Shown one piece after another: positions 2,622 through 29,009 of a DNA stretch of 64,000 bases. The DNA comes from Arcobacter sp. (lineage in GTDB: Bacteria > Campylobacterota > Campylobacteria > Campylobacterales > Arcobacteraceae): contig QKDL01000010.1 of NCBI GenBank assembly GCA_003252105.1, positions 1 to 64,000 of the forward strand, written 5' to 3'. The notes beneath the pieces are model-generated. The model was not told the origin of the DNA, did no database searches, and saw only the letters and a program-made list of their open reading frames with translations. A program made the translations under genes and the position numbers. Position 1 is the stretch's first letter. Each line of letters opens with the position of its first letter.

Positions 2622-3818
2622 TTGGAGATAAATTTGGAAAATATAGATATGTCAAAAAAATTAAACAGTATTAAAAAAAACCCAAAAATAAAAAGTAAAA
2701 AATTTACAGGAGTATACTATCAAAATATTCTTACTAATGGAAGAATAGATAAAAACTTTTTTTTTACATTTAAAGATAAAAATGATTTAAATCAAAATGG
2801 ACAACCAAAATTAAAATGGGTAAAAGTTGGAAAAGAATCTAATGGCATAAATTTAGAAATTACAAATAGAGAAAGAAATTCTCAAATTAGTAAAATGAAT
2901 AGTGGTAAAGATATTACATTAGTTGCAAATAAAAAAAATAAGAAAAAAGAGTTATTAAAGTTTCAAATTCTTGCAGAAAGATATTTTTTAGATAAACAAA
3001 TTACTAAATATAGAGTAAATAGATATAATAATCATATTAAAGGAATTTTTGGACATTTAGATGCTCTAACAATTACAAAAAAACAAATAAAAGATTTTCT
3101 TAATAATTATGCAGTAGTAAATGAACCTGCAACAGTTAATGCAATAAGAGAAATTATAACTGCAATATTTAATCATTCCATAAAAGAGTATGATTTAGTA
3201 ATAAGTAACCCCTGCACAGGAATTCCAAGACTTAAAACAGATAATGAAAGAGAACGATATTTATCATCAGAAGAGATAAAACTACTATTAGATATTTTAA
3301 TGGATAATAAACCAATATGGTTAACAGTTAAACTATCATTATCTACAGGTGCAAGAATAATGAGTATAATTGATTTACAAAAAAAAGATTTAAATTTAAA
3401 TGTAGGGACAGTAACTATTAAGAATTTTAAAACAGGTTCAACTTATAAAGGTTTTTTACAAACAGACTTGATTGAGTTTTTAAAAGAATATACAAGTAAA
3501 ATGAAAATGAATGATTACCTTGTAAGTATCAATTGTGGAGAGAAAGCAACTTTTAAAAATATACAGTGGAGAATTAAACCAATATTAGACAAACTATTTA
3601 ATACAGAACTAGATGCAAATGATAGAAAAAATAGAGTAGTAATTCATACCTTCAGACATACATTTGCTTCTCATTTAGCTATTAATGGTACACCAATTTT
3701 TACAATTCAAAAACTTATGGATCACTCAAAAATAGAACAAACTTTGAGATATGCAAAACTTGCACCAGATAGTGGTAAAGATGATGTTGAAAAACTTTAT
3801 TTAAGAAAGTATAGTTAA
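2622..3818 (+). CDS. site-specific tyrosine recombinase/integrase
   Basis: TGARIMSIIDL, HTFRHTFASHL, DHSKIEQTLRYAKL catalytic motifs; start is TTG at 2622 or ATG at 2649. Confidence 0.93.
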   Translation: MEINLENIDMSKKLNSIKKNPKIKSKKFTGVYYQNILTNGRIDKNFFFTFKDKNDLNQNGQPKLKWVKVGKESNGINLEITNRERNSQISKMNSGKDITLVANKKNKKKELLKFQILAERYFLDKQITKYRVNRYNNHIKGIFGHLDALTITKKQIKDFLNNYAVVNEPATVNAIREIITAIFNHSIKEYDLVISNPCTGIPRLKTDNERERYLSSEEIKLLLDILMDNKPIWLTVKLSLSTGARIMSIIDLQKKDLNLNVGTVTIKNFKTGSTYKGFLQTDLIEFLKEYTSKMKMNDYLVSINCGEKATFKNIQWRIKPILDKLFNTELDANDRKNRVVIHTFRHTFASHLAINGTPIFTIQKLMDHSKIEQTLRYAKLAPDSGKDDVEKLYLRKYS

Positions 3819-9642: not shown

Positions 9643-12600
9643 TTAATCTATAGCTGACTTTGTACTATGTCTTAAGTTATCACTTATTAAAAAACTATCG
9701 ATGAGGTCTAAAATTTTCTCTTTCTTTTCATTAGACTTTGTTCTTGTATTAAGTTCCAGAATAAATTCTATTAATGGTTTTGAATCATAATAGCTAACTT
9801 CTTTTTCATTATCTATATTCTCTATTAATCCTTCTAGAAGTTCAAATATTTTATCACTTAGTCCAGTATCTGAATAATACTCATTTTGAAGATACTCAAT
9901 AAAGCTTTTTACTTCTCTTCGAATATGTAAAGATGAAACCAAAGCTTTTATAAAATTAAAATCATCTTGAATAAAATTTAAACCATTCATTTTAGTTAAA
10001 CTTAGAGTATAAAAATAGTCGTTTTTTTCATTGTTTTTAAACTTCAAAATAAACTGTTTTGATATTTCAATTTTACGTTTATCTTTTGAATGTAATTCCT
10101 CTTCAAAGATTTGATGTAATATTCCATGAATTACTTTACTGTTCAAGGATATAGATTCATTAAGTAGTTCTTCAAAAATTATATTTTTCTTTGTTAGATA
10201 ATAATAAAATAAAAACATTCCTAAATTATTAACATAATTAGTATCTTCACCATCATTTACTAGAATGATAAATGATATACATTTTTTAATATATACTATT
10301 AATTGTTCTTCTGATACAAAGTTATTCAAATACAAATAGTGAAAGTTTTGTAAAGAGTAGATTGAGACTTGTCCTACTGTGTCATTATCTATTATTTTTA
10401 ATAAGAATTCAGCAAATTTTCCTTGATTAACTGACTCAATACTTCCTAATGTTCTTAATAATCCAAATATAACAAAGTCAATATTTTTAGTAATTACTTC
10501 ATTTATTAAAAATTCAACTCTATTTTTCAAATTATCATTTATATATACATATTTATAAACTACTGGTAATAATTCAGCAAAGTCACCTTCAAAAGAGTTA
10601 ATAGAACTAGTCATATGATCATGAATTGTTTGAAATTTATTCTCTTCTCTTATGATTCCTTCATAATGAATATTTTTATTATTCTCTAAAAATTCTATAA
10701 GTTTTTCATCAAAAACTTTTTTTTCTAATAAATATTTAATAGCCTTCAATATTGTTCGTTTTAACCAGTTATCGTTTACATGAGAATATTTGTGAATAAT
10801 GTTTAGAATTTTATTTTCATCGTAGTTTGCTGCAAGCAAACCATTCAAACCAGCAGATAGATAATCAGGATGCACTTCCTCTTGTTCCAAAATTAATAGA
10901 AAAGGATAAAATCTATCAGGATTTTTAATGATTTCTTTTTCAAATTGCCTATAATGTTCTGTTTTTCCTCCTCTTAAAAAATCTCTATCATTTTTTCGTG
11001 ATTTTTTACCATCAAAAACTTTCATTGATTGAAGCCAATTATTTAAACTCATTTTTGAATAAACACTACTATCTAAAGGTGTGCCTACCCAACCTCCTTT
11101 AGATTTATGAGGTTTTTCAAATTTATACCAATGAAATTTTCTTTGTAACTCCTGGTACTCTTTAATATAATTAAATTTTTTTATATCTTCCTTATCAATC
11201 TGACATAAAAGTTCATATTTCTTTAATCCTCTATATTTGCCATTATACTTTCCTGCTGACCATCTATTTTGCCATTTTGGACTAACTTGAATTATTGTAT
11301 TAAATACTTCTTTTTGCTCTTGTTCGTCAAAGAACTTAAATGATTTATTTAGAAGTAATGCAAATTCATATCCATTATCATAATCTAAATCTAATTCTTC
11401 TAAAAGCTTTTTATTTGTGAGTAAAGTAAAAATTTCATTTTTATATTCTTTAGGACTTTGTGAATAACCAAATATAAGAAATGTAATCAAAGATGAATGA
11501 TTGATATTTTTATATGGGCTTATTAATTTCAAAAATTCTTCTTTATCATTTAGTGCTAATGCTGTAACTGATTTAAGTGTTTTCCCATACAATGCCCATG
11601 TACTGTTATGTAAGTCATCAAACTGCCACATTAAATAATCAAAGACCTTATCAGTAATTAAAAACTCTTTTTTTGAATATTCATTTTTAAACTTTTTACT
11701 TATTTTATATATTGCTGATAAATTCATTTCTAATATCTTAATATTATTTTGTTTTATCAAAAATTTGAATATTTCATACCAATCATGATTTAATACTTCT
11801 TTTCTATCTGTATCATCAATTTCATTAATTCTTAAATCTAGGAAATTAAAAAATAAATTGATTGCATATTCTTCATCAATTGAATAAACTTTTTTATATA
11901 GTTTCTCTAAACTAAATCTAGCAAAGTTATCTTCATATATTAAACTTTCATATTTTTTAAAAATATTAAAATTATAATCATCCCAACTATCTAATCTTTC
12001 TAAAGAATGCATTATAGCTTCACTTTTAATTTTTATATTACAGCCACAAGTATCTAATATTTCAAATACTAAATTACTTTTTGAATTAACAAATGTCTCT
12101 AATCTATATTGTAAGTTATATTGTTCAAAGTTTTTGTCGGTAAAGAAATTTGCTTTTTTAAAGGAAATTAGCCAGTCAGAAGAAATCCAACTTTCAATAA
12201 AATACCTCTCATATTTCTTGTCATGTTGAAATAAGTTTTGAATAAAATTGAATTCTTTATCAGTTGGGTTATCAAGACTTCCTAAGTAAGATACTAATAG
12301 TAGTTTAATGTGAAACCTGACTTTATCTGAATAAATTATATTCTCTAATTCTAATAAATACTTTTCTTCATCAGTTCCTCTTAAAAACTGAATTATTTGT
12401 TTAAATTGTTCTCTAATACTTAAATCTTGACTTGTAGTTAATATATAGTCATATAAAGACATCTCCTTTTGAGCAAAGTTTCTTGCAAAAGCATAATCAT
12501 AAAAAGTTTGATGGAAAAAAGAAATTTTATTTCCTTCTTTATTTAAAATATTTTTACTTTGGAGAATATTTAATTCATCTTCATATTCATCTTGATAGTG

Positions 12601-13920
12601 TAAAATAGGTACTTCAATTTTTTTAAGACTATTCATTTTTTCAACTATTGAATTTAAAAGTTTAATCATCCTTATTCTTATACTCTTATCAATTTCTTTA
12701 TCTTGAATTTTTTGTTCCCAAAGTTTGTCATATAAATCTTGTAAAGTTTTAATAGATATACAACTATTATCAATTGGATATAACTCAATAAAAATTGAGA
12801 GATGTAAAGGTAATCTCAGTAGTTCAATTAATGTTTTATTTATCTTTTCAGATTCTTTAATAAATAATTTTAATTTTTCATTTACATATTCAAAACTTAA
12901 CAACTGAATGCTAACAATATTTGAATTATCTAAACTTTTAAATAAAGGGTCATTCTTTAAATCATATTCTCTAATTGAAACAATTATTTTGACATTTGAA
13001 ATATATTTTAGTTGTTCTATAAACTCTAATATTATATTGACTGTTTTTTTATTTGATGACATGGTTAATGAAAGAGCATCAAGTTGGTCTATAAGTATAA
13101 TTACTTGTTCTTTTCTTGATAATTGTCTAATAGAATGTAGAATATTTTCTACTGCAAAGAATTTTGAGAAAGAATTTTTATCTTCAATATCAAACTTGTC
13201 ACATTTAATACTTAAGTAAGTGGTCTTATTTTGAATTAAATCATTTTGTATTTTACTAAGGATAGCTGTTTTCCCAATGCCTGGTTTTCCCGTTAATACA
13301 AGTAAATCATCTTCAAAATCATTACTATTAATAAAGTCATTAATATTATTTATTTCAGGCATTTTTATAAAACTATTTTGGATATATAGATTTTGAGAGG
13401 ATAGTAAAGTTAGTGAGTTTTCTTGAAATCTTTCTTTTATATCATTTTCAGACAATATATTTTTATCAAATATTTCGGGATAATACTTCTTTGCAACATT
13501 TAGATGTATTTCAAGGAGCCCTTCAATTTCTTCCCAACTCCAAGAGATAACACTAAATCCATATTTAGTTGATAAATCTACAGCTTTATCTTGTATTACA
13601 GTATCTTGTTTATATGAATTTGCAAAAATAAATGTATCTATATTAGTAAACTTTTTACTTGCAGATATTACTTCATTTTCAATATCTTCAAGAAGTTCTT
13701 TCTTTATTTTTTGTTCATCTCTTATAATAAACTTATTTTTACATTGATAAACAATTTGTTTTTTATTACTTGAAAAAGAAATGCCATCTATACCATTTTG
13801 ATTTTGACCTTTTCTTCCATAAACTTGGAACTCTATACCAAATTTTTCTATACATAAATCATTTACTAAAGATTCAAACTCTTTTTCATCTTTTAAAGGT
13901 GGAAATTGATATTTACTCAT
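9643..13920 (-). CDS. restriction-endonuclease-like (Mrr/PD-(D/E)XK) - STAND NTPase, Avs/nSTAND-like
   Basis: 1425 aa; N-terminal NGIDGISFSSNKKQIVYQCKNK nuclease-like core; Walker A LTGKPGIGKTA, Walker B VIILIDQLDAL; long alpha-helical repeat C-terminus. Confidence 0.82.
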   Translation of the reverse strand: MSKYQFPPLKDEKEFESLVNDLCIEKFGIEFQVYGRKGQNQNGIDGISFSSNKKQIVYQCKNKFIIRDEQKIKKELLEDIENEVISASKKFTNIDTFIFANSYKQDTVIQDKAVDLSTKYGFSVISWSWEEIEGLLEIHLNVAKKYYPEIFDKNILSENDIKERFQENSLTLLSSQNLYIQNSFIKMPEINNINDFINSNDFEDDLLVLTGKPGIGKTAILSKIQNDLIQNKTTYLSIKCDKFDIEDKNSFSKFFAVENILHSIRQLSRKEQVIILIDQLDALSLTMSSNKKTVNIILEFIEQLKYISNVKIIVSIREYDLKNDPLFKSLDNSNIVSIQLLSFEYVNEKLKLFIKESEKINKTLIELLRLPLHLSIFIELYPIDNSCISIKTLQDLYDKLWEQKIQDKEIDKSIRIRMIKLLNSIVEKMNSLKKIEVPILHYQDEYEDELNILQSKNILNKEGNKISFFHQTFYDYAFARNFAQKEMSLYDYILTTSQDLSIREQFKQIIQFLRGTDEEKYLLELENIIYSDKVRFHIKLLLVSYLGSLDNPTDKEFNFIQNLFQHDKKYERYFIESWISSDWLISFKKANFFTDKNFEQYNLQYRLETFVNSKSNLVFEILDTCGCNIKIKSEAIMHSLERLDSWDDYNFNIFKKYESLIYEDNFARFSLEKLYKKVYSIDEEYAINLFFNFLDLRINEIDDTDRKEVLNHDWYEIFKFLIKQNNIKILEMNLSAIYKISKKFKNEYSKKEFLITDKVFDYLMWQFDDLHNSTWALYGKTLKSVTALALNDKEEFLKLISPYKNINHSSLITFLIFGYSQSPKEYKNEIFTLLTNKKLLEELDLDYDNGYEFALLLNKSFKFFDEQEQKEVFNTIIQVSPKWQNRWSAGKYNGKYRGLKKYELLCQIDKEDIKKFNYIKEYQELQRKFHWYKFEKPHKSKGGWVGTPLDSSVYSKMSLNNWLQSMKVFDGKKSRKNDRDFLRGGKTEHYRQFEKEIIKNPDRFYPFLLILEQEEVHPDYLSAGLNGLLAANYDENKILNIIHKYSHVNDNWLKRTILKAIKYLLEKKVFDEKLIEFLENNKNIHYEGIIREENKFQTIHDHMTSSINSFEGDFAELLPVVYKYVYINDNLKNRVEFLINEVITKNIDFVIFGLLRTLGSIESVNQGKFAEFLLKIIDNDTVGQVSIYSLQNFHYLYLNNFVSEEQLIVYIKKCISFIILVNDGEDTNYVNNLGMFLFYYYLTKKNIIFEELLNESISLNSKVIHGILHQIFEEELHSKDKRKIEISKQFILKFKNNEKNDYFYTLSLTKMNGLNFIQDDFNFIKALVSSLHIRREVKSFIEYLQNEYYSDTGLSDKIFELLEGLIENIDNEKEVSYYDSKPLIEFILELNTRTKSNEKKEKILDLIDSFLISDNLRHSTKSAID

Positions 13921-13962
13921 TAACTCTTCTTAATATTTTTTTACTACCATTTATAATGCGAC

Positions 13963-15666
13963 CTAATTAATTATTGTTTCAATTCTATAATTTCTTGTCT
14001 GAATATAATTAGGAACATGTTCAAAAAATGTATAATTATCTTTTAATGTTATTTTTTTATCTTTTTCTATTATAGTTGAATTTAATAAATATTCAATAGT
14101 CTCATCCAGCTTTTCTATTTCTAAAACCTCACTAGATTGTGTAATTGAATCTAATTCATGCAAATTTTGTGCTGTATTAAATCTCAACCCATATTGTAAG
14201 ATATTTCTAAAACTATTCCAATCATATAGAATAACATTTTCTATTTGCTGAAAATCAAATAGAGGCATGGTATGTAGTAAAATAAGATGTGTGTTATCTA
14301 AATTTATTTGGCTTAATCCAATTTGTTCAAGTTCTATCTTTAACTTATTATCCTTGTTGTAGAAATAACTAAATGAGTTTAGTTGTTTAACACCCTTATC
14401 AATCAAGTCTTTACTATTACAATAATGATATACTTCTTCTTTTAAATATGCTTTTGCATAAGTTGAATGTTTTGCTTGTATTAAAAAATATTTCTTTCTA
14501 ACTTTATCTACTAAAATGAAATCAATATCTAACTTAATTTTTTTCTCATCTATTTCATCTGTAAAAGTTTTATCAAATCTATAAATATCATAATTTTCAA
14601 ATTCTTTTTTCTGACTATTAATATAATTAAAAATATATTCTTCAAAAATGAAACCTTTTTTTTGATTAAAAGTGTTCTTATTTTTAGATTTCATATAATC
14701 ATTAAAGTACATTCTCATAACATAATCGTAAGCAGTACCATCTATGAAGGATATATTATTCCCTTTTATTTTAAAACCTTTATTTAGATTAGTTTTTAGA
14801 TTACTTTCATATATTATCAGATTTAAAAAATCATTATCAAGTCCTATTTGAGAGAATCTTTTATTATTTTTTAAATGAATTTTACTTTTTGAATAATATC
14901 CATACAATAGATATGCAAAAAATATGCAAAGATTGTTCATATATATTAATGCCTCTAACTCAAAATTCTTATGGTGAATATAATTTTTATTAAAATAAAA
15001 AACTCTATCAAAAAGGAAAGTACTTAAACTTTTTATATAATCGTTTATGTTATTAACTCCACCTTCCATGAAAATCTTATGATTTAGAACTGAACTATAT
15101 TCAAAACTTGATTTATCCCAATTTATTGCCATCCATCTTTTTTTTAAAAGTGTTTTTAGTTCTGGTGTTGGTAATATTGATATTGTGTTCTTATCCATTT
15201 TTAATTCAGCACTATTTAACAATACATAAAAAATTACTTCTTTCAAGTATACAAAAGCTAAAGCAAGTGAAATATCATCTATATTAATCTTATTATTTCC
15301 ATTAAATATATCAATATTATATTCATCAATTATATAATCTAAACAGTATAAAAGAAATCCAGGAAAATAGTCTTGATTACTCTGAATATACATTTTTAAT
15401 TGTTTTATATTTCCTTCATTTAAGATTTTTATAGTGTTTTTAATATTATGTTTTAATTGTAATTGTAATAGGAATACCTCTTTATATAAAATTCTACGTA
15501 TATATTGTTGTTTCTTTTTGGTTGAGAAAAAACTTAATATTTTGTCTAATGAGTTGTTTTTTTTAGTAGCTTCTGGTAAAAATTTTAATATGTCATCAAG
15601 TATTTTCTCATTTAAAAAAGCTTTTCCTTTTGTAGATAATATTTTTATGTCGGTGTGAAAAAACAT
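13963..15666 (-). CDS. protein with PD-(D/E)XK nuclease-like domain
   Basis: 567 aa; FEEYIFNYI...KLDIDFILVDKVRKKYFLIQAKHS core; 42 nt upstream of the STAND gene on the same strand. Confidence 0.68.
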   Translation of the reverse strand: MFFHTDIKILSTKGKAFLNEKILDDILKFLPEATKKNNSLDKILSFFSTKKKQQYIRRILYKEVFLLQLQLKHNIKNTIKILNEGNIKQLKMYIQSNQDYFPGFLLYCLDYIIDEYNIDIFNGNNKINIDDISLALAFVYLKEVIFYVLLNSAELKMDKNTISILPTPELKTLLKKRWMAINWDKSSFEYSSVLNHKIFMEGGVNNINDYIKSLSTFLFDRVFYFNKNYIHHKNFELEALIYMNNLCIFFAYLLYGYYSKSKIHLKNNKRFSQIGLDNDFLNLIIYESNLKTNLNKGFKIKGNNISFIDGTAYDYVMRMYFNDYMKSKNKNTFNQKKGFIFEEYIFNYINSQKKEFENYDIYRFDKTFTDEIDEKKIKLDIDFILVDKVRKKYFLIQAKHSTYAKAYLKEEVYHYCNSKDLIDKGVKQLNSFSYFYNKDNKLKIELEQIGLSQINLDNTHLILLHTMPLFDFQQIENVILYDWNSFRNILQYGLRFNTAQNLHELDSITQSSEVLEIEKLDETIEYLLNSTIIEKDKKITLKDNYTFFEHVPNYIQTRNYRIETIIN

Positions 15667-16160: not shown

Positions 16161-16976
16161 ATGTCAGTAAATGTAAAACCATTAAGTAATGAGAAGTTGT
16201 ATGAAGTTGCACCAACACTTTTTACTCAAAGAGCTCATGGTGATGTAAGTGAAAAATATCACTTTATTCCAACAATAGATGTGATTGAAGAGATAAAAGC
16301 ACATAATTGGCATCCAGTTAGTGTAAGTCAAGCAAATGTTAGAGATTTAGAAAAGGAAGGTTTCCAACAACATTGTGTCAGATTTAGACACTTTGAAGAT
16401 TTTTTAAACCCACAAGATAATGCAGTTGAATTGTTACTGTTTAATTCTCACGATAGAACTAAAGCATTTAGTATAAGTGCAGGTATCTTTAGATTTGTAT
16501 GTAGTAATGGTCTTGTTATCTCAGATAGTGTATTTGAAAGCTATAAGATAAGACACTTAGGTTCTAAAGATAATGATGTAGCAAATGCTATTTTAAAAAT
16601 AACAGCTATAAAAGATAAACTCCTTGAAAAAGTAAATAAATTGTCTTCTATTACACTAAATGAAAAAGAGAAACAATCTTTTGCTAAATCAACTATACCT
16701 TTAAGATTTGAAGAACATTTAGAAGTAGATGCAAATGATTTATTACTTCCACATAGAGATGAAGACTTAAAAGATGATTTATACACAACACTAAATGTTA
16801 TCCAAGAAAATCTAATTAGAGGAAATATTAGTGGAGTAAATAAACAAACTAATAGAAAATTTACTTCTAAACAAATAACTTCAATCTCTACAGATGCAAA
16901 ACTAAATAAATCCTTGTGGGATATGGCTGAAACAATTGCATCTATTAAAGATACTAGTTATGAAATAGCAGCATAA
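16161..16976 (+). CDS. DUF932-domain phage/plasmid-like protein
   Basis: 271 aa; HWHPVSVSQANVR-like N-terminus, HDRTKAFSISAGIFRFVCSNGLVI. Confidence 0.82.
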   Translation: MSVNVKPLSNEKLYEVAPTLFTQRAHGDVSEKYHFIPTIDVIEEIKAHNWHPVSVSQANVRDLEKEGFQQHCVRFRHFEDFLNPQDNAVELLLFNSHDRTKAFSISAGIFRFVCSNGLVISDSVFESYKIRHLGSKDNDVANAILKITAIKDKLLEKVNKLSSITLNEKEKQSFAKSTIPLRFEEHLEVDANDLLLPHRDEDLKDDLYTTLNVIQENLIRGNISGVNKQTNRKFTSKQITSISTDAKLNKSLWDMAETIASIKDTSYEIAA

Positions 16977-16986
16977 GGAGTGAAAA

Positions 16987-17580
16987 ATGAAACTAGTAAA
17001 CTATACCTTACAAAATCAAATAGAGTATTTAGGGGAAAATAAATCAAACTTAAACTTTAAAGAGTATCTTCAATCAATATTAGAAGATACTTCTACTCCA
17101 TACTATCAAAGAGCAGATTATATTGGTTTATCTCTAAATGAGATAAAAACAAAGATTGATTATCTTTCAAAGGATATTCAAGAGCTACAAGCATTTAAGA
17201 AAAAGCTTTCAATAGCATTGGATATAGCAAAAGAGCAAGTAGCTGATATTTTTATATCAAATGGTATAGATAGAATAGATGGAAATATTATCTCATCTTT
17301 AACTCTTTCAAAAGAATCCTCAAAACAAAAAGATGTTCTTAAAATCATTGATGAAAATAAAGTTATGGGCTTAGGGTATGTAAAGTTTGATGTAGATATT
17401 AAAGCAGTTGAAAAAGCACTAAACACAAAAGAGGGTAAAAAAGAGCTTGATGGTTTAGTTGAGATAACAACTATTACTGAAACATCCTCTTCAAAAATTA
17501 AAGTTAATACAAAAAGAACTTCATCAAATAACACAAATGAAACCCAAGAGATTCTAATTGTAGAAGAACAAGTAGCATAA
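16987..17580 (+). CDS. siphovirus Gp157-like protein
   Basis: 197 aa; coiled-coil N-terminus IGLSLNEIKTKIDYLSKDIQELQAFKKKL; sits between DUF932 and Rad52-like genes. Confidence 0.6.
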   Translation: MKLVNYTLQNQIEYLGENKSNLNFKEYLQSILEDTSTPYYQRADYIGLSLNEIKTKIDYLSKDIQELQAFKKKLSIALDIAKEQVADIFISNGIDRIDGNIISSLTLSKESSKQKDVLKIIDENKVMGLGYVKFDVDIKAVEKALNTKEGKKELDGLVEITTITETSSSKIKVNTKRTSSNNTNETQEILIVEEQVA

Positions 17581-17589
17581 GGAGTTAGT

Positions 17590-18312
17590 ATGTTTAATGA
17601 TAATCAAATTAAAACTTTAAATAATGAACTAGATTCATCAAGAATAAAAACAAGAGAAAAAGGAAATATCAATCTTTCATATCTTGAAGGCTTTGATGTA
17701 ATAGAAACAGCTAATAGTATCTTTGGCTTTGGCAACTGGTCTTATAATGTTTCAAAATTAGAACAGGTATCACAAGAGGTAAACTCTAATCAAAACCATG
17801 TAGTATGCTATAAAGCAATAGTTAAAATCCTTGTTGAAAACAATCAACATACACAAAGTATTAGTAGAGAAGATGTAGGGTTTGGAAGTGGTATAGCAAA
17901 GACTTTAGCTGATTGTCATGAAAATGGTGCAAAAGAAGCTATAACAGATGCCCTTAAACGTGCTTTGCGTTCATTTGGTAATCAGTTTGGTAACTCATTG
18001 TATGATAAAACAAGAAATCATAATACTCAAAATCAAGCAAATAACTCAAACTCAAATAAAGTTCCATCTTCTACTAATGTATCTAATACTACAGCTACTT
18101 CTTCAAACAATCGTTCTAATACTCAAAGCTTTAATCAGTATGAGTATCAATCATTGTATAACTTAGGATTAAATATAGTTGAACATAGTGGATTTTTAAT
18201 TGTTGTAGGTGATGATATCTTTTCTAAGAAAGATTCTATAAAAGCTTGTGGGTTTAGATGGGATGGTAAAACTAAACAATGGTATAAGCAAATAGAAGAG
18301 GGTGTTGCATGA
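17590..18312 (+). CDS. Rad52/Rad22-family single-strand annealing protein
   Basis: YLEGFDVIETANSIFGFGNWSYNV...GFGSGIAKTLADCHENGAKEAITDALKRALRSFGNQFGNSLYD, characteristic of Rad52-like proteins. Confidence 0.88.
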   Translation: MFNDNQIKTLNNELDSSRIKTREKGNINLSYLEGFDVIETANSIFGFGNWSYNVSKLEQVSQEVNSNQNHVVCYKAIVKILVENNQHTQSISREDVGFGSGIAKTLADCHENGAKEAITDALKRALRSFGNQFGNSLYDKTRNHNTQNQANNSNSNKVPSSTNVSNTTATSSNNRSNTQSFNQYEYQSLYNLGLNIVEHSGFLIVVGDDIFSKKDSIKACGFRWDGKTKQWYKQIEEGVA

Positions 18313-18656: not shown

Positions 18657-18787
18657 TATAATAGTAAAAATATTTTTTAATATTAAATTCATCTAATTAT
18701 AAAACTAATTCAAGATGTAGATAAAACGACATAACCTTTCGTTTGCTCATGTTAAACTTCTTATATAAAACAAAAAAGGAGTTAATT

Positions 18788-19432
18788 ATGTTACCAATAT
18801 TTATTATAGGTGGAGTAGCATTAGCAGCAACTGGTTATGGATTAAAAAAATATATTCAAGATAATGATAAAGAAGATGACTTAGTAGACGCAGTTCATAA
18901 CTTTACTAATTGGGGAGATGAACTTGGAAGAAAGATAGCTGATTTTGGAGATAGTTTTTTTGAGAATAAAGATGAAGAAGAACCTAAAGATGTAATTGAA
19001 GAGTTTAATCTAATTCATAATGGGTTTTATGAAGAGATTGTACCTTCCTTCCTAGAAACTTATGGAAGTTTACAAAATTTACCTGATTTAGATATGGATA
19101 GTTTCTATAAACTTGAATCAAAAACTGAAACAAATGTCTTTGACATTAATGAGCAAGAAAAAGCTGAATTGGATAAATATGTAGTGAAGTTATCGAAAGG
19201 GATTTGTGCTATTTGGACGGAGTTAAAAGAGATTAGACTATTACAAAAAGAGAATCATGATTTTAACCATTTTTCAAAAAGTACAAAAAGAAAAATTGAA
19301 GATGTCCATGTGTTAATGGATGAACTTATTAAAGTTTATAAACTAAAGGTTATCAATGATAAAGGTGAACTAAGAGAAAAGTTTAAAAAAGCACTTGATT
19401 CTATTGAGTTGGCTGCTGATAAAATAATCTAA
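18788..19432 (+). CDS. hypothetical membrane-anchored protein
   Basis: ORF track starts at 18743 but ATG 18788 has RBS aaaaaaggagttaatt; N-terminal LPIFIIGGVALAATGYGLKKYI TM segment. Confidence 0.72.
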   Translation: MLPIFIIGGVALAATGYGLKKYIQDNDKEDDLVDAVHNFTNWGDELGRKIADFGDSFFENKDEEEPKDVIEEFNLIHNGFYEEIVPSFLETYGSLQNLPDLDMDSFYKLESKTETNVFDINEQEKAELDKYVVKLSKGICAIWTELKEIRLLQKENHDFNHFSKSTKRKIEDVHVLMDELIKVYKLKVINDKGELREKFKKALDSIELAADKII

Positions 19433-19662
19433 GGTTTAAAAAAATCACAGAGTTCTACATTTAGAATTTTTGAGATTTTTAATAATTGTTCAAGATTAAA
19501 ATGTTTGCCATTATAGTATATCTCAGCACCTGATACTACAGAGACTGATTTATATCCCATTTTTAAAGATAATTCAAGTTGAGATAACTTTTTTTCTTTT
19601 CTATAATTGGCAACATTTTTACCAATAGTTTTATAAAGCTGTTCAGGAGTGATATCTTGCAT
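19429..19662 (-). CDS. XRE-family HTH transcriptional regulator
   Basis: 77 aa; IGKNVANYRKEKKLSQLELSLKMGYKSVSVVSGAE...KHFNLEQLLKISKILNV. Confidence 0.85.
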   Translation of the reverse strand: MQDITPEQLYKTIGKNVANYRKEKKLSQLELSLKMGYKSVSVVSGAEIYYNGKHFNLEQLLKISKILNVELCDFFKP

Positions 19663-19956: not shown

Positions 19957-21585
19957 ATGAGTGTAAATGTTTATATAAAAGAAAATGTGAAAAAAATTGC
20001 GGAAAAAGAAAAAAATGTTTTAGTTACTCCAGACATCCCTGAAAACAAACTAAATAATGCAGTAAAAGCATTTAAATGTGAAGATTTTTATGAATCTATT
20101 TTAGCAATTTATGATGACAGTATGTTTAATAATGCCAAATGTGGATTAGTATTTACAGGTGAAAGAGTTATTCATAATTCTTATGGTACTTTTGTCTATG
20201 CTGATATAGAATCTGTTGAACATATAGTAAATATTACGGTGAATGATAAAGGTAAAGAGAATACTGATGAATTTATAGTTATCAAAACCAAGGATGGGAA
20301 AGAACATAAAATCAAAGATGATTTGACTTTTGCAAATAAAAAGAACCTTGCAGAATTTTTAAATACAATAATTACAGATTTTAAAGACTTTAAAGAAGAA
20401 AATCAACTTACTACAATTTCAGAAATGTCAGAAGAATTTAAAAAAGCATATTTAAAAATTATAGTAAATATGACATATGTAGATGATGGAGAAATTGATG
20501 AAAAAGAGCTAGCTGAGATTTTACTTCTTATGACAAGATTGGAATTAAGTAAAGATTCTAGATTTGATATAAGAACATACCTTACTGAAATATCTTATGA
20601 AAACTTAGTAAGTATCGAAGACTTTATAACAATAATTAAAGAACACTCTGAATCAAGTCACTTTCAATCATTAATGATTTCTCTTGCTAAAGATATGATA
20701 AATGTACATTTTAGTACTAATGATTCGATGAGTAGAGATTTTAAATTTTTGACTGAAAATCAAAGTTTATTTAACTTATCAGATGATGAAATCGATTTGG
20801 CATTCAGTGCAGTTGAAAATGATTACAAAATGCTAAAAGAAGACCTAGATGATAATGCAATTAAAAAGAATGCAGAGGATTTAGCTACAAAAGCAGCAGC
20901 TGCAGGTGCTCCACTAGCTGCAGTTTATATTTCAGGTTCTGTAGTCGGTATGTCAGCAGCTGGTATTACATCAGGATTGGCTACTCTAGGAATGGGTATG
21001 GGTATGACTGGTGGTTTAGTTGTGGTAGGATTAATTGGAATCATGACATATAAAGGGTTGAAACACCTTACAGGTGCAAATGAACTAGATAAATATAAAA
21101 CAAGAGAATTAATGTTGCATGAAGTTATTAAACAAACACAAAAAACTATTTCTTTAATAATAGATGATATTAACTTTGTTGTTCAAAAACTAAATGATGT
21201 AACATTAAATCATGCAGAACAAAGTGAAAAGATTAAAAAACTTGTACAAATGATGGCAAAATATCAAAGCGCCATTAAAACAGTAGATAACAAAACAAAT
21301 CATTACCAGAACTCAGCAAATAGATTACAATGTCCAAGAGAATTAGATATATCAAGATTAAAGTCATTGACAGCAGAAGCTACAAAAAAACCACTTTTTA
21401 ATTTTATCATCGAAAATTATAAAGAAGAATCAATTCAAGTTGATGGAAAACAGAGAAATGCATTCCTTCTTAGAGACAATATTGATACAGAAATACTTGA
21501 TAAAATGGGTGAAATATTTAAATCATTAGAATATTTTGATATGGGTAATATTATGAAAGGTAAGGTTAAAGGTATTTTTGGATGA
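19957..21585 (+). CDS. PH-like/TerB-like protein with glycine-rich hydrophobic segment
   Basis: 542 aa; CGLVFTGERVIHNSYGTFVYADIESVEHI; TerB-like IVNMTYVDDGEIDEKELAEILLL; GSVVGMSAAGITSGLATLGMGMGMTGGLVVVGLIGIM. Confidence 0.7.
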   Translation: MSVNVYIKENVKKIAEKEKNVLVTPDIPENKLNNAVKAFKCEDFYESILAIYDDSMFNNAKCGLVFTGERVIHNSYGTFVYADIESVEHIVNITVNDKGKENTDEFIVIKTKDGKEHKIKDDLTFANKKNLAEFLNTIITDFKDFKEENQLTTISEMSEEFKKAYLKIIVNMTYVDDGEIDEKELAEILLLMTRLELSKDSRFDIRTYLTEISYENLVSIEDFITIIKEHSESSHFQSLMISLAKDMINVHFSTNDSMSRDFKFLTENQSLFNLSDDEIDLAFSAVENDYKMLKEDLDDNAIKKNAEDLATKAAAAGAPLAAVYISGSVVGMSAAGITSGLATLGMGMGMTGGLVVVGLIGIMTYKGLKHLTGANELDKYKTRELMLHEVIKQTQKTISLIIDDINFVVQKLNDVTLNHAEQSEKIKKLVQMMAKYQSAIKTVDNKTNHYQNSANRLQCPRELDISRLKSLTAEATKKPLFNFIIENYKEESIQVDGKQRNAFLLRDNIDTEILDKMGEIFKSLEYFDMGNIMKGKVKGIFG

Positions 21586-23186
21586 ACAAAGACTATTTAA
21601 AGAACGAGGGAAATGCTTTAAAAGTCCAAAAACACCAATTAAATCAATCTGAAAATAAATTAGCAGAGATTGATAATATATTATCAAATATTCAATCAAG
21701 TCAAGAACAAGATAATCTCTTGTTAGATAATATGTTATTAGATATGGAAGAATTGTTAGGAACTACTGATAACACTGTAGATTCATACTCTCAAGGTGAT
21801 ATATTAAATATTGAGAAACAATTAGAAATAACAGTTGATCCTGAAAATTTAGCTGTTGTTGAAGAATTAGATAAGGTTGATTTTGATGATAATATTTCTT
21901 GGGAAGAATATATGAATTCTATTGAAGAATATAGTTTTAAGAATAATCTTGATTTAACAGAAGACCCTTTTAAATCACTAATGACTAAGTCTCAACAAGT
22001 AGAACTTCAAAAGAAAATTAAAGACGAATTTACTTTAAAAAATGCACAGTGTGATAAATACGACTATATGATTGCAGGAACATGTGGTGTAATAGCTGGT
22101 TTAGTAGATATTTTATTTGTTGGTGCTCCTAGAGATAGTAAACTTGGAGATATTGCAGATGGGCAAGCAAATAAGATTACAGAGAAATTTGCAGGATTTG
22201 TTGGATGGAAGAAAGAACAAGTTGATATTGCTTATCAGAAGCATATTGACAATTTTCAAATGCAAGGAAAAGTACCTCAGTCTTATGAAAACTTTAAAAA
22301 ACATAATATGCTTAATTTCTTAGAAAATAAGTATAAAGTTAATTATGATCAAGTAAGTACTTCACATAAAAACTCAAAATTGGGTACTGGTGGTGCTGTT
22401 GAAGGACTAGAAGCATCAAATCATCACTTAAAAAGCTTAGGACATTCTCCCGATATTATAGGTTTGTTTTTTTCTATTTTAAATCAATTTACTAGTACAT
22501 CAACTTTTATAAGTAATGGACAAATTGTTACTATAGATACTGAAAATTTCAATCTTGAAGGTCATAATTTTATTGCCAAAATATTTTGTGGATTTGCAAA
22601 TTGGTTTGGGCATCTTATGTCTGACTGGGCAGGCTCAAAAACTTCTGCAAAAAAAGGGAATAGAGGTTCAGGTGCTCCTATACCATTTTATAACCTTCTT
22701 CAGCTCTTGAATGTAGGTAGCTTTGGTGAAAAAGAAGAAACCTTTGCACAAATCACAACTAAAGTTTTTGAAAAAGGTTATGATTCGAGGCATGCTATGG
22801 CTATGGCAATTCCCGTATTAATAAATGAATTACTTATTCGATTTATGTACACAATGAAAGCAAGATTTTATCATGAAAAAGAGTGGAGAGATTGTATACC
22901 AAAAGGTAATATTCCTGAAGTAAGAAGAATGTTATTAGTTGGTCATGGTGTATTATGTATAATTGATGGAGCAGATGCATATATTCGTTCAGGTTCTGGT
23001 GCGGATATGGTTACTTTCTTATCAAGAACAAACTTACTTGCTTGGACTAGATTTGGACAACTTGCATTAAAAGAACTATATGCATGGTATAACAGCGGGC
23101 ATATTGATGTTGAAAAAGTTGATGAATATTTAGATGAAGAATTAAAAATGATGCTTAAAAAAAATAATTATGAAAAAATCACATGA
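21582..23186 (+). CDS. conserved-looking hypothetical protein of unknown family
   Basis: 534 aa, 4-nt overlap with upstream gene; hydrophobic YMIAGTCGVIAGLVDILFVG. Confidence 0.72.
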   Translation: MNKDYLKNEGNALKVQKHQLNQSENKLAEIDNILSNIQSSQEQDNLLLDNMLLDMEELLGTTDNTVDSYSQGDILNIEKQLEITVDPENLAVVEELDKVDFDDNISWEEYMNSIEEYSFKNNLDLTEDPFKSLMTKSQQVELQKKIKDEFTLKNAQCDKYDYMIAGTCGVIAGLVDILFVGAPRDSKLGDIADGQANKITEKFAGFVGWKKEQVDIAYQKHIDNFQMQGKVPQSYENFKKHNMLNFLENKYKVNYDQVSTSHKNSKLGTGGAVEGLEASNHHLKSLGHSPDIIGLFFSILNQFTSTSTFISNGQIVTIDTENFNLEGHNFIAKIFCGFANWFGHLMSDWAGSKTSAKKGNRGSGAPIPFYNLLQLLNVGSFGEKEETFAQITTKVFEKGYDSRHAMAMAIPVLINELLIRFMYTMKARFYHEKEWRDCIPKGNIPEVRRMLLVGHGVLCIIDGADAYIRSGSGADMVTFLSRTNLLAWTRFGQLALKELYAWYNSGHIDVEKVDEYLDEELKMMLKKNNYEKIT

Positions 23187-24069
23187 TAAGATAGCTATAA
23201 GATTGGCTTCAATTCTTACAAAACTTAATAGTGGTGAAAGATTCACTACTATTGAGTTAGCAAAAGAATTTAATGTAACAGAAAGAACAATACAGAGAGA
23301 TATTAAAGAAAGACTTCTGTATATACCACTTGAAAAAAATGGTAACTATTATAGTTTGGCTAGTTATGCTCTAGGAAAACTTACCTTTGAAGATATTAAA
23401 AACTTTGCAACACTTAGTGGTATAAAGTCTCTTTACCCATCTTTATCAAATGAATTTTTAACTGATATTTTAAATAAAAAACTTAATCAATCCTATCTTA
23501 TAAAAAATCAAGGTTTTGAAAATATTAGTGATAAGGAAGAATTATTTGAGATATTAAGTGCAGCTATAGTTAAAAATAGTTCAATAAGTTTTTTTTATTC
23601 AAAGAAGGAAAGAAAAGTTAACCCTTACAAATTAATCAATAATAATGGAATATGGTATTTGTTAGCTGATGAAAGTAATGAATTAAAAACATTTACATTT
23701 TCAAAAATCACAAATTTTAAATGGAAAGATGAAACTAAAAGTTTTAAGCCTAAAAAGAAGTATTTAGAGCAAATTGAAAAAAATGAAAGTATTTGGTTTA
23801 CAGATAGAATTGAAGTTATTTTACAAATAGATAATGAAGCTAAAGAGTATTTTGAAAGAAAAAATAACTTAGCTAATAAAAAGATAGTTGAACAGAATGA
23901 GAAGTATTTAATTGTCTCTACTAAAGTATCTTATGATGATGAGATATTGAAGATCGTTAAGTACTGGTTACCTTATATTAAGATTCTAGAACCTAAGTAT
24001 TTAAAAGAAAAGTTACAAAATGTATTAAAAGAATATATCCTTGAAGAAGTAAATGATTATGAATTATGA
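23170..24069 (+). CDS. WYL-domain transcriptional regulator
   Basis: HTH ERFTTIELAKEFNVTERTIQRDIKERL and NPYKLINNNGIWYLLADESNELKTFTFSKI. Confidence 0.88.
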   Translation: MKKSHDKIAIRLASILTKLNSGERFTTIELAKEFNVTERTIQRDIKERLLYIPLEKNGNYYSLASYALGKLTFEDIKNFATLSGIKSLYPSLSNEFLTDILNKKLNQSYLIKNQGFENISDKEELFEILSAAIVKNSSISFFYSKKERKVNPYKLINNNGIWYLLADESNELKTFTFSKITNFKWKDETKSFKPKKKYLEQIEKNESIWFTDRIEVILQIDNEAKEYFERKNNLANKKIVEQNEKYLIVSTKVSYDDEILKIVKYWLPYIKILEPKYLKEKLQNVLKEYILEEVNDYEL

Positions 24070-24119
24070 TATTTATATAGATTTTGTTATAATAGATATA
24101 AATTAATAGGAGGAATAAT

Positions 24120-25106
24120 ATGGCAAAAGCATCACAGCTAAAAGCACTTATCAAGTCACATTATGACAATGATTATACCAGATTTGATACTTTATCATTA
24201 CAATTAGCTGCACATGAAGCTACTTTGGGTCATAATTCCTTAGCATTAGAAGTTAAAAAGCTTGTTGATAAATCAAAAGAGAGTAGAACACCAGAATCAA
24301 TCAACTCTAAAAATATTAGATTATATAATAACACGATAGATGAGTTATTTATTCATTCTAGACCTATTTTAGATATGTATGATATTATTCTTCCTCGTTC
24401 AAACCAAGATAAAATATTGAAGATACTAAGTGAATATAATAATCAAGAAAAGTTAAAAAAACATGGTTTGAAACATAGAAGAAAAATCCTATTGTCTGGA
24501 CACCCTGGTACAGGTAAAACTATGACTGCATCAGTTATAGCTTCAGAACTACATTTACCTTTATATGTAATTCAAATAGATAAAATTATTACAAAGTTCA
24601 TGGGTGAAACAGGTGCAAAATTAAGACAAATATTCAAAATGATAGAAATGCAAAAGGGTGTTTATTTTTTTGATGAATTTGATTCTATAGGTACAGATAG
24701 AAGTAAAGATAATGAAGTTGGAGAAATGAGAAGAGTATTAAACTCATTTTTACAATTTTTAGAAAATGATAACTCTGATAGCTTAATATTAACTGCTACA
24801 AATAATATATCTTTATTGGACAGAGCTTTATTTAGAAGGTTTGACGACATCTTGTACTATGACATACCAACAAAAGATGAAATACTAAAACTTTTAAAAT
24901 TGAGATTTCAAGCATTTACAGTTAAGTTTGATTTATCTGGAGTTTTAGCTAAAGCATCTGGATTAAGCCATGCAGATATCGTGAAATCTTGTGATGATGC
25001 TATTAAAGAAGCTATTATCAATGATAAAAAGTATATTTCTAAAACATCATTGATAAATAATTTTCAAATTATAAAAGAATCATATAAAAAAATCAGTGAG
25101 TCGTAA
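24120..25106 (+). CDS. AAA family ATPase (classical clade)
   Basis: Walker A LLSGHPGTGKT, Walker B VYFFDEFDSIG, sensor LTATNN, RALFRRFDD. Confidence 0.92.
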   Translation: MAKASQLKALIKSHYDNDYTRFDTLSLQLAAHEATLGHNSLALEVKKLVDKSKESRTPESINSKNIRLYNNTIDELFIHSRPILDMYDIILPRSNQDKILKILSEYNNQEKLKKHGLKHRRKILLSGHPGTGKTMTASVIASELHLPLYVIQIDKIITKFMGETGAKLRQIFKMIEMQKGVYFFDEFDSIGTDRSKDNEVGEMRRVLNSFLQFLENDNSDSLILTATNNISLLDRALFRRFDDILYYDIPTKDEILKLLKLRFQAFTVKFDLSGVLAKASGLSHADIVKSCDDAIKEAIINDKKYISKTSLINNFQIIKESYKKISES

Positions 25107-25109
25107 GAT

Positions 25110-27587
25110 ATGCCTGATTTACGACCCATATTTATTAGTGAACAATATAAAACTGACATAAAATTCACATCACCTCAAGGAGGAGGTGGTGACTCATCAT
25201 TACCTTACAGAAATGTAAGTAGTCATGGTAATAAATTATATGGGAAATTAGAAACTCTTTTAAATATCCAAAACAAACAAATAATAGAAAATGACTCTTT
25301 AAATAAAGGTATTTATTTAGAGGTTTCTGGGACACAAGAATGTGAGTTAAATATTGAATCACTTGAAAATATACCAAGAGAGATTAGATTAGCAAATTTT
25401 AAAAATTCTTATCCTCAGAAAGCTACATTTTTTTTACCATTAGAAGAAAGAGATTTTTTAGAAAAGAAAATAATTGAATATACAAATAAAGTAACAGCAA
25501 AAGGAAATCCTAAACATAATAACCTAATAGCTACAATAGAAGATTTTAAAACTGCAACGATTAGTTCATTTTGGAATGGTAAAGAAGACAAAGTACCTAC
25601 CGATATTAAAGTGTGGTGTGAAGTATGGTTAATCAATAATAAAGATACTCATGAGGTAGATGTTATTTCAAGATTTGAAAATATTGCTCAAACTCATGGT
25701 ATAGAAATACAAATAGAATCAAATATAAAGTTTCCTGAGAGAATAATAACTTTAGCAAAATTAAATGCAGAAGATATTTTAAATCTGATTAATTCTTATC
25801 CGTATCTAGCTGAAATTAGACCTTATTCAACTCCTAATATAGCTTACACAAGTATTGAATATAGTGAACAGAAAGAATGGGTTCATGAACTAAAAGATAG
25901 AGTTATTGTAAATTCAGATAGTAATGTTTCTGTATGTATTTTAGATACAGGAGTAAATAATATTCATCCATTACTGGAAGATATTTTACTAGATGAAGAT
26001 AAGCATACGTATTTAACATCATGGGGTATAGATGATCATGATAGTCATGGCACAGAAATGAGTGGAATAGTTGCTTATGGAAATTTAAATGAACATTTAA
26101 CTGGTCTATTAGATATTGAATTGAATCATACTTTATCATCTTATAAAATACTACCTCCAACAGGAAGTACCGAGAAAAGCTTATGGGGATATATTACAGA
26201 ACAAGCTGTTGCAACTAGAGAAATTGAAAAGCCTAATAAAATACATATATATTCGATGTCTGTTACTGCTAAAGATACAGATGGTGATGTATTAGATGGT
26301 ACACCAAGTTCATGGTCATCTGCAATAGATAATATATTATTTAATAGTGATACTAAAAAACTTTTTTGTATTTCAGCAGGTAATGCAGATATAGATGATG
26401 TATCATTTACATATATGGCAAGTAATATAATATCTCCTATAGAAAATCCAGCCCAATCTTGGAACTCTCTAGTCATTGGAGCTTTTACAGAAAAAGATTC
26501 AATAACAGATGAAGATAATGAATATATTGATTATGATGTAATAATGGCAAAAAAAGATGAAGTATCACCATTCACAACAACTTCTCGCCTATGGGATAAG
26601 CAATGGTGTATAAAGCCTGATATTGTATTTGAAGGTGGAAATCTTTTACTAGATACAATGAGAAATGATAAAACTGCTCATGAAGATTTGTCCCTTTTGA
26701 CAACACATTCAGATGTTAGACGAGATTTAATTACTTGGACTTATGCAACTAGTGCAGCAAATGCATTAGGAGCTAATTTTGTAGCAAGATTATATTCTTC
26801 CTTTCCAGAAGCAACACCTGAAACAATTAGAGGATTAGTTATTCATTCTGCTAATTGGACAGATAATATGTTTGAACAATTTAAAGAGAGTTCTGATTCT
26901 GATAAGGATGTGTATAAGAAGCTGTTAAGAAGTTGTGGCTATGGAGTACCTAGTTTTGATAAAGCAGTTAATTGCTACACAAATAGTTTAACATTAATTG
27001 CTGAAGATACTATTCAACCATTTATTAAAGTTGGTAGTGATGTAAAAACAAACGTGATGAATCTTTATGAACTACCATGGCCAAGAGAAGCTCTAGAAGA
27101 GTTAGGCTCTCAAGAAGTAGAAATGAGAGTTACTCTTTCTTATTTTATAGAACCAGCTCCTACAGAAATGATTGTAAGTAATTTTAATCGATATAATTAT
27201 CCCTCTCATGGATTAAGATTTGAAGTAAATCATCCAACTGAAGATATTGAGCAATTTAAAACTAGATGTAATAAACATGGAAGAAATAAGGAATTTAGAC
27301 CCAGTGGACTTAGTACTAGAGATTATTGGAAAATAGGTAAAAATACCAGAGATAGAGGAAGTATGATATCTGATGTATGGAAGGGTACGGCTGTAGATTT
27401 GGCTTCTTGTAATCACATAGCTGTTTTTCCAATAAATGGATGGTGGAGAACAAGAGAATACTTAGGAGCTTATGAGAATGTGGCTCGATATACATTAATT
27501 GTAAGTATATATTCGCCATCACAAGAGACAGATATATATACACCTGTAAAAGTTCAGGTCGAAACGCCAATAGCAATAGAAACATAA
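25110..27587 (+). CDS. S8 family (subtilisin-like) serine peptidase
   Basis: Triad motifs VCILDTGVNN (Asp), DSHGTEMSGIVAYG (His), TYATSAANALGANFVARL (Ser); 3 bp after the AAA gene. Confidence 0.9.
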   Translation: MPDLRPIFISEQYKTDIKFTSPQGGGGDSSLPYRNVSSHGNKLYGKLETLLNIQNKQIIENDSLNKGIYLEVSGTQECELNIESLENIPREIRLANFKNSYPQKATFFLPLEERDFLEKKIIEYTNKVTAKGNPKHNNLIATIEDFKTATISSFWNGKEDKVPTDIKVWCEVWLINNKDTHEVDVISRFENIAQTHGIEIQIESNIKFPERIITLAKLNAEDILNLINSYPYLAEIRPYSTPNIAYTSIEYSEQKEWVHELKDRVIVNSDSNVSVCILDTGVNNIHPLLEDILLDEDKHTYLTSWGIDDHDSHGTEMSGIVAYGNLNEHLTGLLDIELNHTLSSYKILPPTGSTEKSLWGYITEQAVATREIEKPNKIHIYSMSVTAKDTDGDVLDGTPSSWSSAIDNILFNSDTKKLFCISAGNADIDDVSFTYMASNIISPIENPAQSWNSLVIGAFTEKDSITDEDNEYIDYDVIMAKKDEVSPFTTTSRLWDKQWCIKPDIVFEGGNLLLDTMRNDKTAHEDLSLLTTHSDVRRDLITWTYATSAANALGANFVARLYSSFPEATPETIRGLVIHSANWTDNMFEQFKESSDSDKDVYKKLLRSCGYGVPSFDKAVNCYTNSLTLIAEDTIQPFIKVGSDVKTNVMNLYELPWPREALEELGSQEVEMRVTLSYFIEPAPTEMIVSNFNRYNYPSHGLRFEVNHPTEDIEQFKTRCNKHGRNKEFRPSGLSTRDYWKIGKNTRDRGSMISDVWKGTAVDLASCNHIAVFPINGWWRTREYLGAYENVARYTLIVSIYSPSQETDIYTPVKVQVETPIAIET

Positions 27588-28189: not shown

Positions 28190-28825
28190 ATGAGTAAATT
28201 AAAAAATATTACAGATGAAATCATGAGTTTTGCAGAAGAAAATGATTTATTGTTTTCTAATGGGGCAAGTATACTATTTAGTATCTTGGTTGAAGATATA
28301 GAAAAAAAAGGCATAGTTAGAATCTCAAATTCTACACCAATTATCTCATATCCTAAATATAATAAAAAAACTATTCTGTTATATAATGATTATTATAAAT
28401 CAGGTTTTGATAAAACAACATTAGTGCCTTCTGAATACTTTATATATATTTATGATTTGAATTTATTACTTATGAAAGAGGGTGCATCTCATAGATTAGC
28501 TGCTATACATAGATATGTAAATGACAAGAATAACAATAAGTTAGAATTGGAAAGTAGCTTTTTAAGTCCAAGGAAAATTAATATTGAAGAATTAAAAAAG
28601 TATCAAATTAATAAAAAAAAGCAAAAGATATATTATTTTGATAAAAATAACAAAAAAATATTTATAGTAGATAATCTTTTTATATCTCTAATTATATTTC
28701 TCCAAAAAAAATATTTAAACAAAACTAATAATCTTTCTTATCTTGGATATTTAAAATTTAAGTATATATACAAAGAGAGTCAAGATTCATTTTCATTGGC
28801 ACTTATGAAGTTAAGAAACTATTAA
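28190..28825 (+). CDS. hypothetical protein
   Basis: 211 aa ORF after the broken reading frame; no recognised family. Confidence 0.6.
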   Translation: MSKLKNITDEIMSFAEENDLLFSNGASILFSILVEDIEKKGIVRISNSTPIISYPKYNKKTILLYNDYYKSGFDKTTLVPSEYFIYIYDLNLLLMKEGASHRLAAIHRYVNDKNNNKLELESSFLSPRKINIEELKKYQINKKKQKIYYFDKNNKKIFIVDNLFISLIIFLQKKYLNKTNNLSYLGYLKFKYIYKESQDSFSLALMKLRNY

Positions 28826-28971: not shown

Positions 28972-29009
28972 AAATAACGAATTACTACAGTCTAGATTCG
29001 TATCTTCTA
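28972..29009. repeat. attR direct repeat within the rpsU 3' end
   Basis: Identical to 2435-2472; contains RRYESRL-stop of rpsU. Confidence 0.92.

Follow-up and report, generated by a model that had tools for sequence, protein, structure and literature searches.

Five consecutive genes at positions 19957-27587 of the 64,000-nucleotide stretch of Arcobacter sp. DNA analysed here (hereafter, the window) belong to two named anti-phage systems, Bunzi and IetAS, and we consider it highly likely that these lie side by side as independent cassettes within an integrative element. Both systems are already known, Bunzi reportedly from the original description and phage assays of Millman et al. 2022, and IetAS from original phage assays said to be those of Gao 2020. 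The Bunzi half comes with a small protein of membrane type, hitherto undescribed, and with a pair of regulators; these recur as a shared frame around several different defence systems in related bacteria.

The first two genes, bnzA (19957-21585, plus strand, 542 aa) and bnzB (21582-23186, plus strand, 534 aa, encoding a membrane-type protein), are adjacent and overlapping, in this order, and their products match the respective PADLOC models over the full length (BnzA, PDLC03833, E 4.9e-168, residues 1-541 of 542; BnzB, PDLC03834, E 1.6e-189, residues 1-527 of 534). The third gene (23170-24069, plus strand, 299 aa) encodes a transcriptional regulator belonging to the Bunzi cassette, which PADLOC also labels a WYL regulator, with the Pfam domains WYL and WCX, both over the cut-offs, and HTH_11. 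Next come ietA (24120-25106, plus strand, 328 aa) and ietS (25110-27587, plus strand, 825 aa), encoding an AAA ATPase and an S8 subtilase, respectively, identified with PADLOC (IetA, 4.3e-69; IetS, 5.9e-32). Given these PADLOC, Pfam and NCBIfam identities, the array is Bunzi plus IetAS, with the WYL gene between them. The original prediction described the architecture correctly: the ORF coordinates confirm five genes on the same strand with a 4-nt overlap at 21582-21585, a 17-nt overlap at 23170-23186, the genes for the AAA and S8 proteins being 3 nt apart. Its ATPase-protease pair is IetA/IetS, and the defence role that it proposed agrees, as a prediction, with the PADLOC matches to named anti-phage systems. 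The array is, however, not the undescribed system it was taken for, as the PADLOC check assigns its genes to Bunzi and IetAS. The Bunzi locus extends beyond the array and includes two previously overlooked upstream genes, for an anchor protein (18788-19432) and an XRE-type regulator (19429-19662).

A five-gene unit would be expected to recur, and it does not. Among 397 Campylobacterota genomes (the phylum being judged by matched records, e.g., Helicobacter saguini and Sulfurimonas), BnzA matches with E <1e-100 were found in seven, including this one, an eighth (G325) having a decayed copy, and true IetA (E <1e-68) was found in eight, the remaining matches being housekeeping AAA proteins. IetA and full-length BnzA occur together in this genome only (1/397). 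No IetAS genes were detected near any other of the approximately 80 BnzB loci gathered from GTDB and viral contigs with BnzB as the query, and no Bnz or WYL genes adjoin the IetAS relatives, which are up to 91% (IetA) and 79% (IetS) identical to the window pair. One five-gene system was therefore rejected for lack of conserved co-occurrence across genomes and loci. The Bunzi locus of Helicobacter aurati (L026/L100) is fragmented, representing a decayed copy.

The Bunzi and IetAS cassettes both reside inside an integrative element of about 26.5 kb whose insertion site is the rpsU 3' end (rpsU encodes ribosomal protein S21). The left end, attL (2435-2472), is a 38-bp copy of the rpsU 3' end and an exact direct repeat of attR (28972-29009), the 3' end of the intact rpsU on the minus strand, where the translated S21 ends at the repeat. 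The element encodes a tyrosine integrase (2622-3818, plus strand; Pfam Phage_integrase, 5e-21), a TraD-like ATPase and a replication-relaxation protein. In two congeners (L177 and L178), rpsU lies between the same neighbours without an insert, and another congener (L180-L182) carries a different element at the rpsU site. An Rfam search of the left 34 kb of the window yielded only 5S rRNA. On the minus strand at 9643-15666, the element encodes a 1425-aa protein with an AAA/nSTAND/NACHT-type P-loop and a weak PDC-M54A match, beside a 567-aa protein without a family match; this pair is a candidate second defence unit. A 211-aa ORF near the right end (28190-28825) has no Pfam or PADLOC match.

The catalytic motifs of the IetAS pair, predicted to be intact, proved to be so. 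IetA, with the Pfam AAA domain, contains the motifs GHPGTGKT (Walker A, at 127) and FFDEFD (Walker B, at 183) together with the RRFD residues, all invariant among eight IetA relatives, and in IetS, with the Pfam Peptidase_S8 domain, D279, H313, N425 and S548 are invariant among seven relatives. The organization, an AAA ATPase followed by an S8 protease with intact catalytic residues, is that of IetAS of pTiC58, S026/S025 of SGI1 and the anti-phage IteA/IteS of NCBIfam. The window pair differs in being divergent: its scores fall below the NCBIfam equivalog cut-offs (NF042959, IteA, 192 bits versus 510; NF042956, IteS, 55 bits versus 900), so it represents a divergent branch rather than the narrow equivalog, and close copies are found only within the same family, where stand-alone pairs in L065 and L066 are 89-91% (IetA) and 75-79% (IetS) identical to it.

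According to PMC5006074 and PMC8562856, AAA/subtilase pairs act as toxin-antitoxin modules, with AAA-restrained subtilase toxins in Agrobacterium, SGI1 and mycoplasma, and IetS/IetA of pTiC58 and S025/S026 of SGI1 maintain their elements in this manner. Because of this precedent, and with the pair located near the right end of the integrative element, it is a possibility that we take seriously, but do not favour, that IetAS mainly stabilises the element rather than acting in phage defence; ietAS is also listed among anti-phage systems (PMC9958689, and the NCBIfam name), a role compatible with the former, and stand-alone copies exist outside this element. Our preferred reading is that IetAS is a separate AAA-controlled protease toxin/defence pair that, by analogy, most likely works like the AAA-restrained subtilase toxins: IetS would be restrained or loaded by IetA and freed on infection or on loss of the element.

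Like the BnzA and BnzB models in PADLOC, the Bunzi half of the window contains bnzA and bnzB, but it adds the anchor, XRE and WYL genes. The mechanism of Bunzi is listed as not known (PMC12926258), and TerB is listed for the system (PMC10952713). The original description of the first protein as TerB/PH-like is only faintly borne out: window BnzA has no Pfam match to a TerB or PH domain, and such features appear weakly in a few of 34 BnzA homologues (DUF533 in three, best 4e-6; TerB in one, 0.018; bPH_3 in one, 0.0068). The glycine-rich hydrophobic segments predicted in the first two proteins are evident from hydropathy, which shows hydrophobic segments in the anchor, BnzA and BnzB and none in IetA or IetS. 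BnzA has a glycine-rich hydrophobic hairpin at about 314-368, with borderline hydropathy values, and BnzB contains at least one segment of strong hydrophobicity (163-181). No meaningful match was obtained for BnzA or BnzB against PDB sequence profiles. Homology of BnzA with either PDC-M09A or the TerB protein encoded in some related loci (see below) was not supported, nor was homology of BnzB with PDC-M40B. In L025 (321-4269), BnzA carries a C-terminal glycine-rich/TerB-like extension, and its partner is PDC-M40B in place of BnzB. A distant BnzB relative (26% identity) is encoded, with no obvious partner gene, on enterobacterial conjugative plasmids (e.g., IncHI1B), in L071 (7776-9044) and several hundred plasmid records.

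The anchor gene (18788-19432, plus strand) encodes 214 aa from an ATG, the ORF list placing its start at a TTG at 18743, and was characterized by hhalign, HMM matches, hydropathy and co-location with WYL genes. The protein begins with a single glycine-rich hydrophobic helix, MLPIFIIGGVALAATGYGLKKY. The C-terminal approximately 70 aa of the anchor family are homologous to PDC-M09A of the PADLOC candidate system PDC-M09 (hhalign probability 97.7, E 1.8e-12), a link that for the window anchor rests on family profiles, the single-sequence PADLOC search having given no match. When a profile of this C-terminal domain was compared with 2040 ORFs, it recovered its own family and, apart from that, almost exclusively M09A genes adjoining BnzB. 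In Bacillota, the partner of BnzB-type proteins is PDC-M09A, which has a long glycine-rich middle that is absent from the window anchor; the latter adjoins BnzA instead of replacing it. The anchor gene flanks BnzAB in the window, L021, L022, L024 and L081, and in L025 only a short fragment matches the anchor N-terminus. Proteins with the anchor N-terminus are also encoded in genomes of genus g27 (e.g., G019, G021 and G045) that lack this WYL family. The XRE-type HTH regulator gene (19429-19662, minus strand, 77 aa; Pfam HTH_3, 2e-7) converges with the anchor gene, is transcribed away from bnzA, and is 72-79% identical to anchor-adjoining genes in L024, L243, L244, L245 and L259.

Next to BnzB in 78 loci, BnzA alone was found in 33, M09A alone in 36, both in one and neither in eight, counts that depend on the profiles built here and on neighbourhoods of three genes. 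Hence M09A and BnzA look like alternative partners of BnzB. The sole locus with both, from Sulfurimonas (L084, the same locus as L024), is arranged like the window, and the Bunzi loci of Campylobacterota appear to keep a reduced M09A-type protein besides BnzA.

The WYL gene goes with Bunzi, not with IetAS. It lies beside BnzAB or a few genes away in the window and in L021-L024, L078, L079, L081, L086 and L101, upstream or downstream of the pair depending on the locus, and adjoins BnzA in L025, whereas no WYL gene occurs near any IetAS relative within the stretches read. The originally suggested tie of this regulator to defence genes is thus borne out by its domains and by the adjoining Bnz genes in many loci. 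BrxR-type WYL repressors adjoin diverse defence systems (PMC9122601), and the window protein, like the BrxR/CapW-type regulators (PMC9122601, PMC9122588), combines WYL and WCX beside varied defence cargo, so that from its domains it is a putative repressor; no description of a recurrent WYL-anchor pairing was found in that literature.

This pairing extends well beyond Bunzi. The WYL family is present in 43 of the 64 anchor-positive genomes compared with 105/394 overall (Fisher p 6e-14, a descriptive value because the genomes are not phylogenetically independent), and 48 of 80 anchor matches are within 15 kb of a WYL gene, 33 of the 38 genomes concerned lacking full BnzA. The cargo found in the WYL-anchor frame includes a TerB protein with PDC-M40B (L243, L250, L251 and L254), Leo-type dynamin GTPases (L247), other dynamin-like GTPases (L245 and L246) and PDC-M09A (L259, L261 and L262). 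The module identities are mosaic, the nearest relatives of window BnzA/BnzB being in L021 (73/73% identity), that of the WYL gene in L024 (72%) and that of the XRE gene in L243 (79%). The DUF932-Gp157-Rad52 genes (window 16161-18312) are also present in several frame loci, which implies that the mobile elements carrying the cassettes are related.

The presence of the anchor and XRE genes beside other cargo without BnzA in 33/38 genomes, and their evolution separate from that of BnzAB, would be expected of element passengers without a Bunzi role. We consider this explanation rather unlikely, as the anchor shares its domain with PDC-M09A, the alternative BnzB partner, and repeatedly flanks BnzAB itself. 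Instead, we tentatively propose that a common frame of WYL and glycine-zipper anchor genes, often with XRE, exchanges membrane-acting effectors (Bunzi, PDC-M40, PDC-M09 and Leo GTPases) in Campylobacterota, and that the anchor, a relative of the BnzB partner PDC-M09A, is a genuine third Bunzi component.

The spacing between the WYL gene and ietA is only 50 bp, so read-through or shared control of the two cassettes is possible; a promoter scan (79 sites versus 65.5 expected) was uninformative. That the five genes nevertheless form one functional system here, albeit one rare elsewhere, with IetAS as the protease effector of a Bunzi sensor, is very improbable: the genes are contiguous on one strand with short gaps and without a terminator-like site between WYL and ietA, but this is the sole such case among the approximately 80 BnzB loci and the eight IetA-positive genomes, IetAS stands alone in L065 and L066, and each cassette is complete without the other.

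With Bunzi and IetAS taken as independent cassettes, the WYL and XRE proteins would keep Bunzi expression low and release it upon infection or DNA damage, a restraint modelled on BrxR and its island (PMC9122601). BnzA, with its glycine-zipper hairpin and TerB-like family features, and BnzB may then come together at the inner membrane, with the anchor as a further member or as a regulator, and stop phage growth through membrane action, probably to the detriment of the cell itself. Judging from the sequences, Bunzi would be a membrane-acting, probably abortive defence; we lean slightly towards membrane action, and it is from the features described above that we infer membrane location, triggering and killing.

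The two nearly mutually exclusive partners of BnzB, BnzA and PDC-M09A, join two systems that have been catalogued separately, and the presence of BnzA together with a reduced M09A-type protein in the loci of Campylobacterota provides a testable third component of Bunzi. The common frame ties Bunzi to dynamin-type systems, and the dynamin-type GTPases in it point to the membrane as the site where Bunzi may act.
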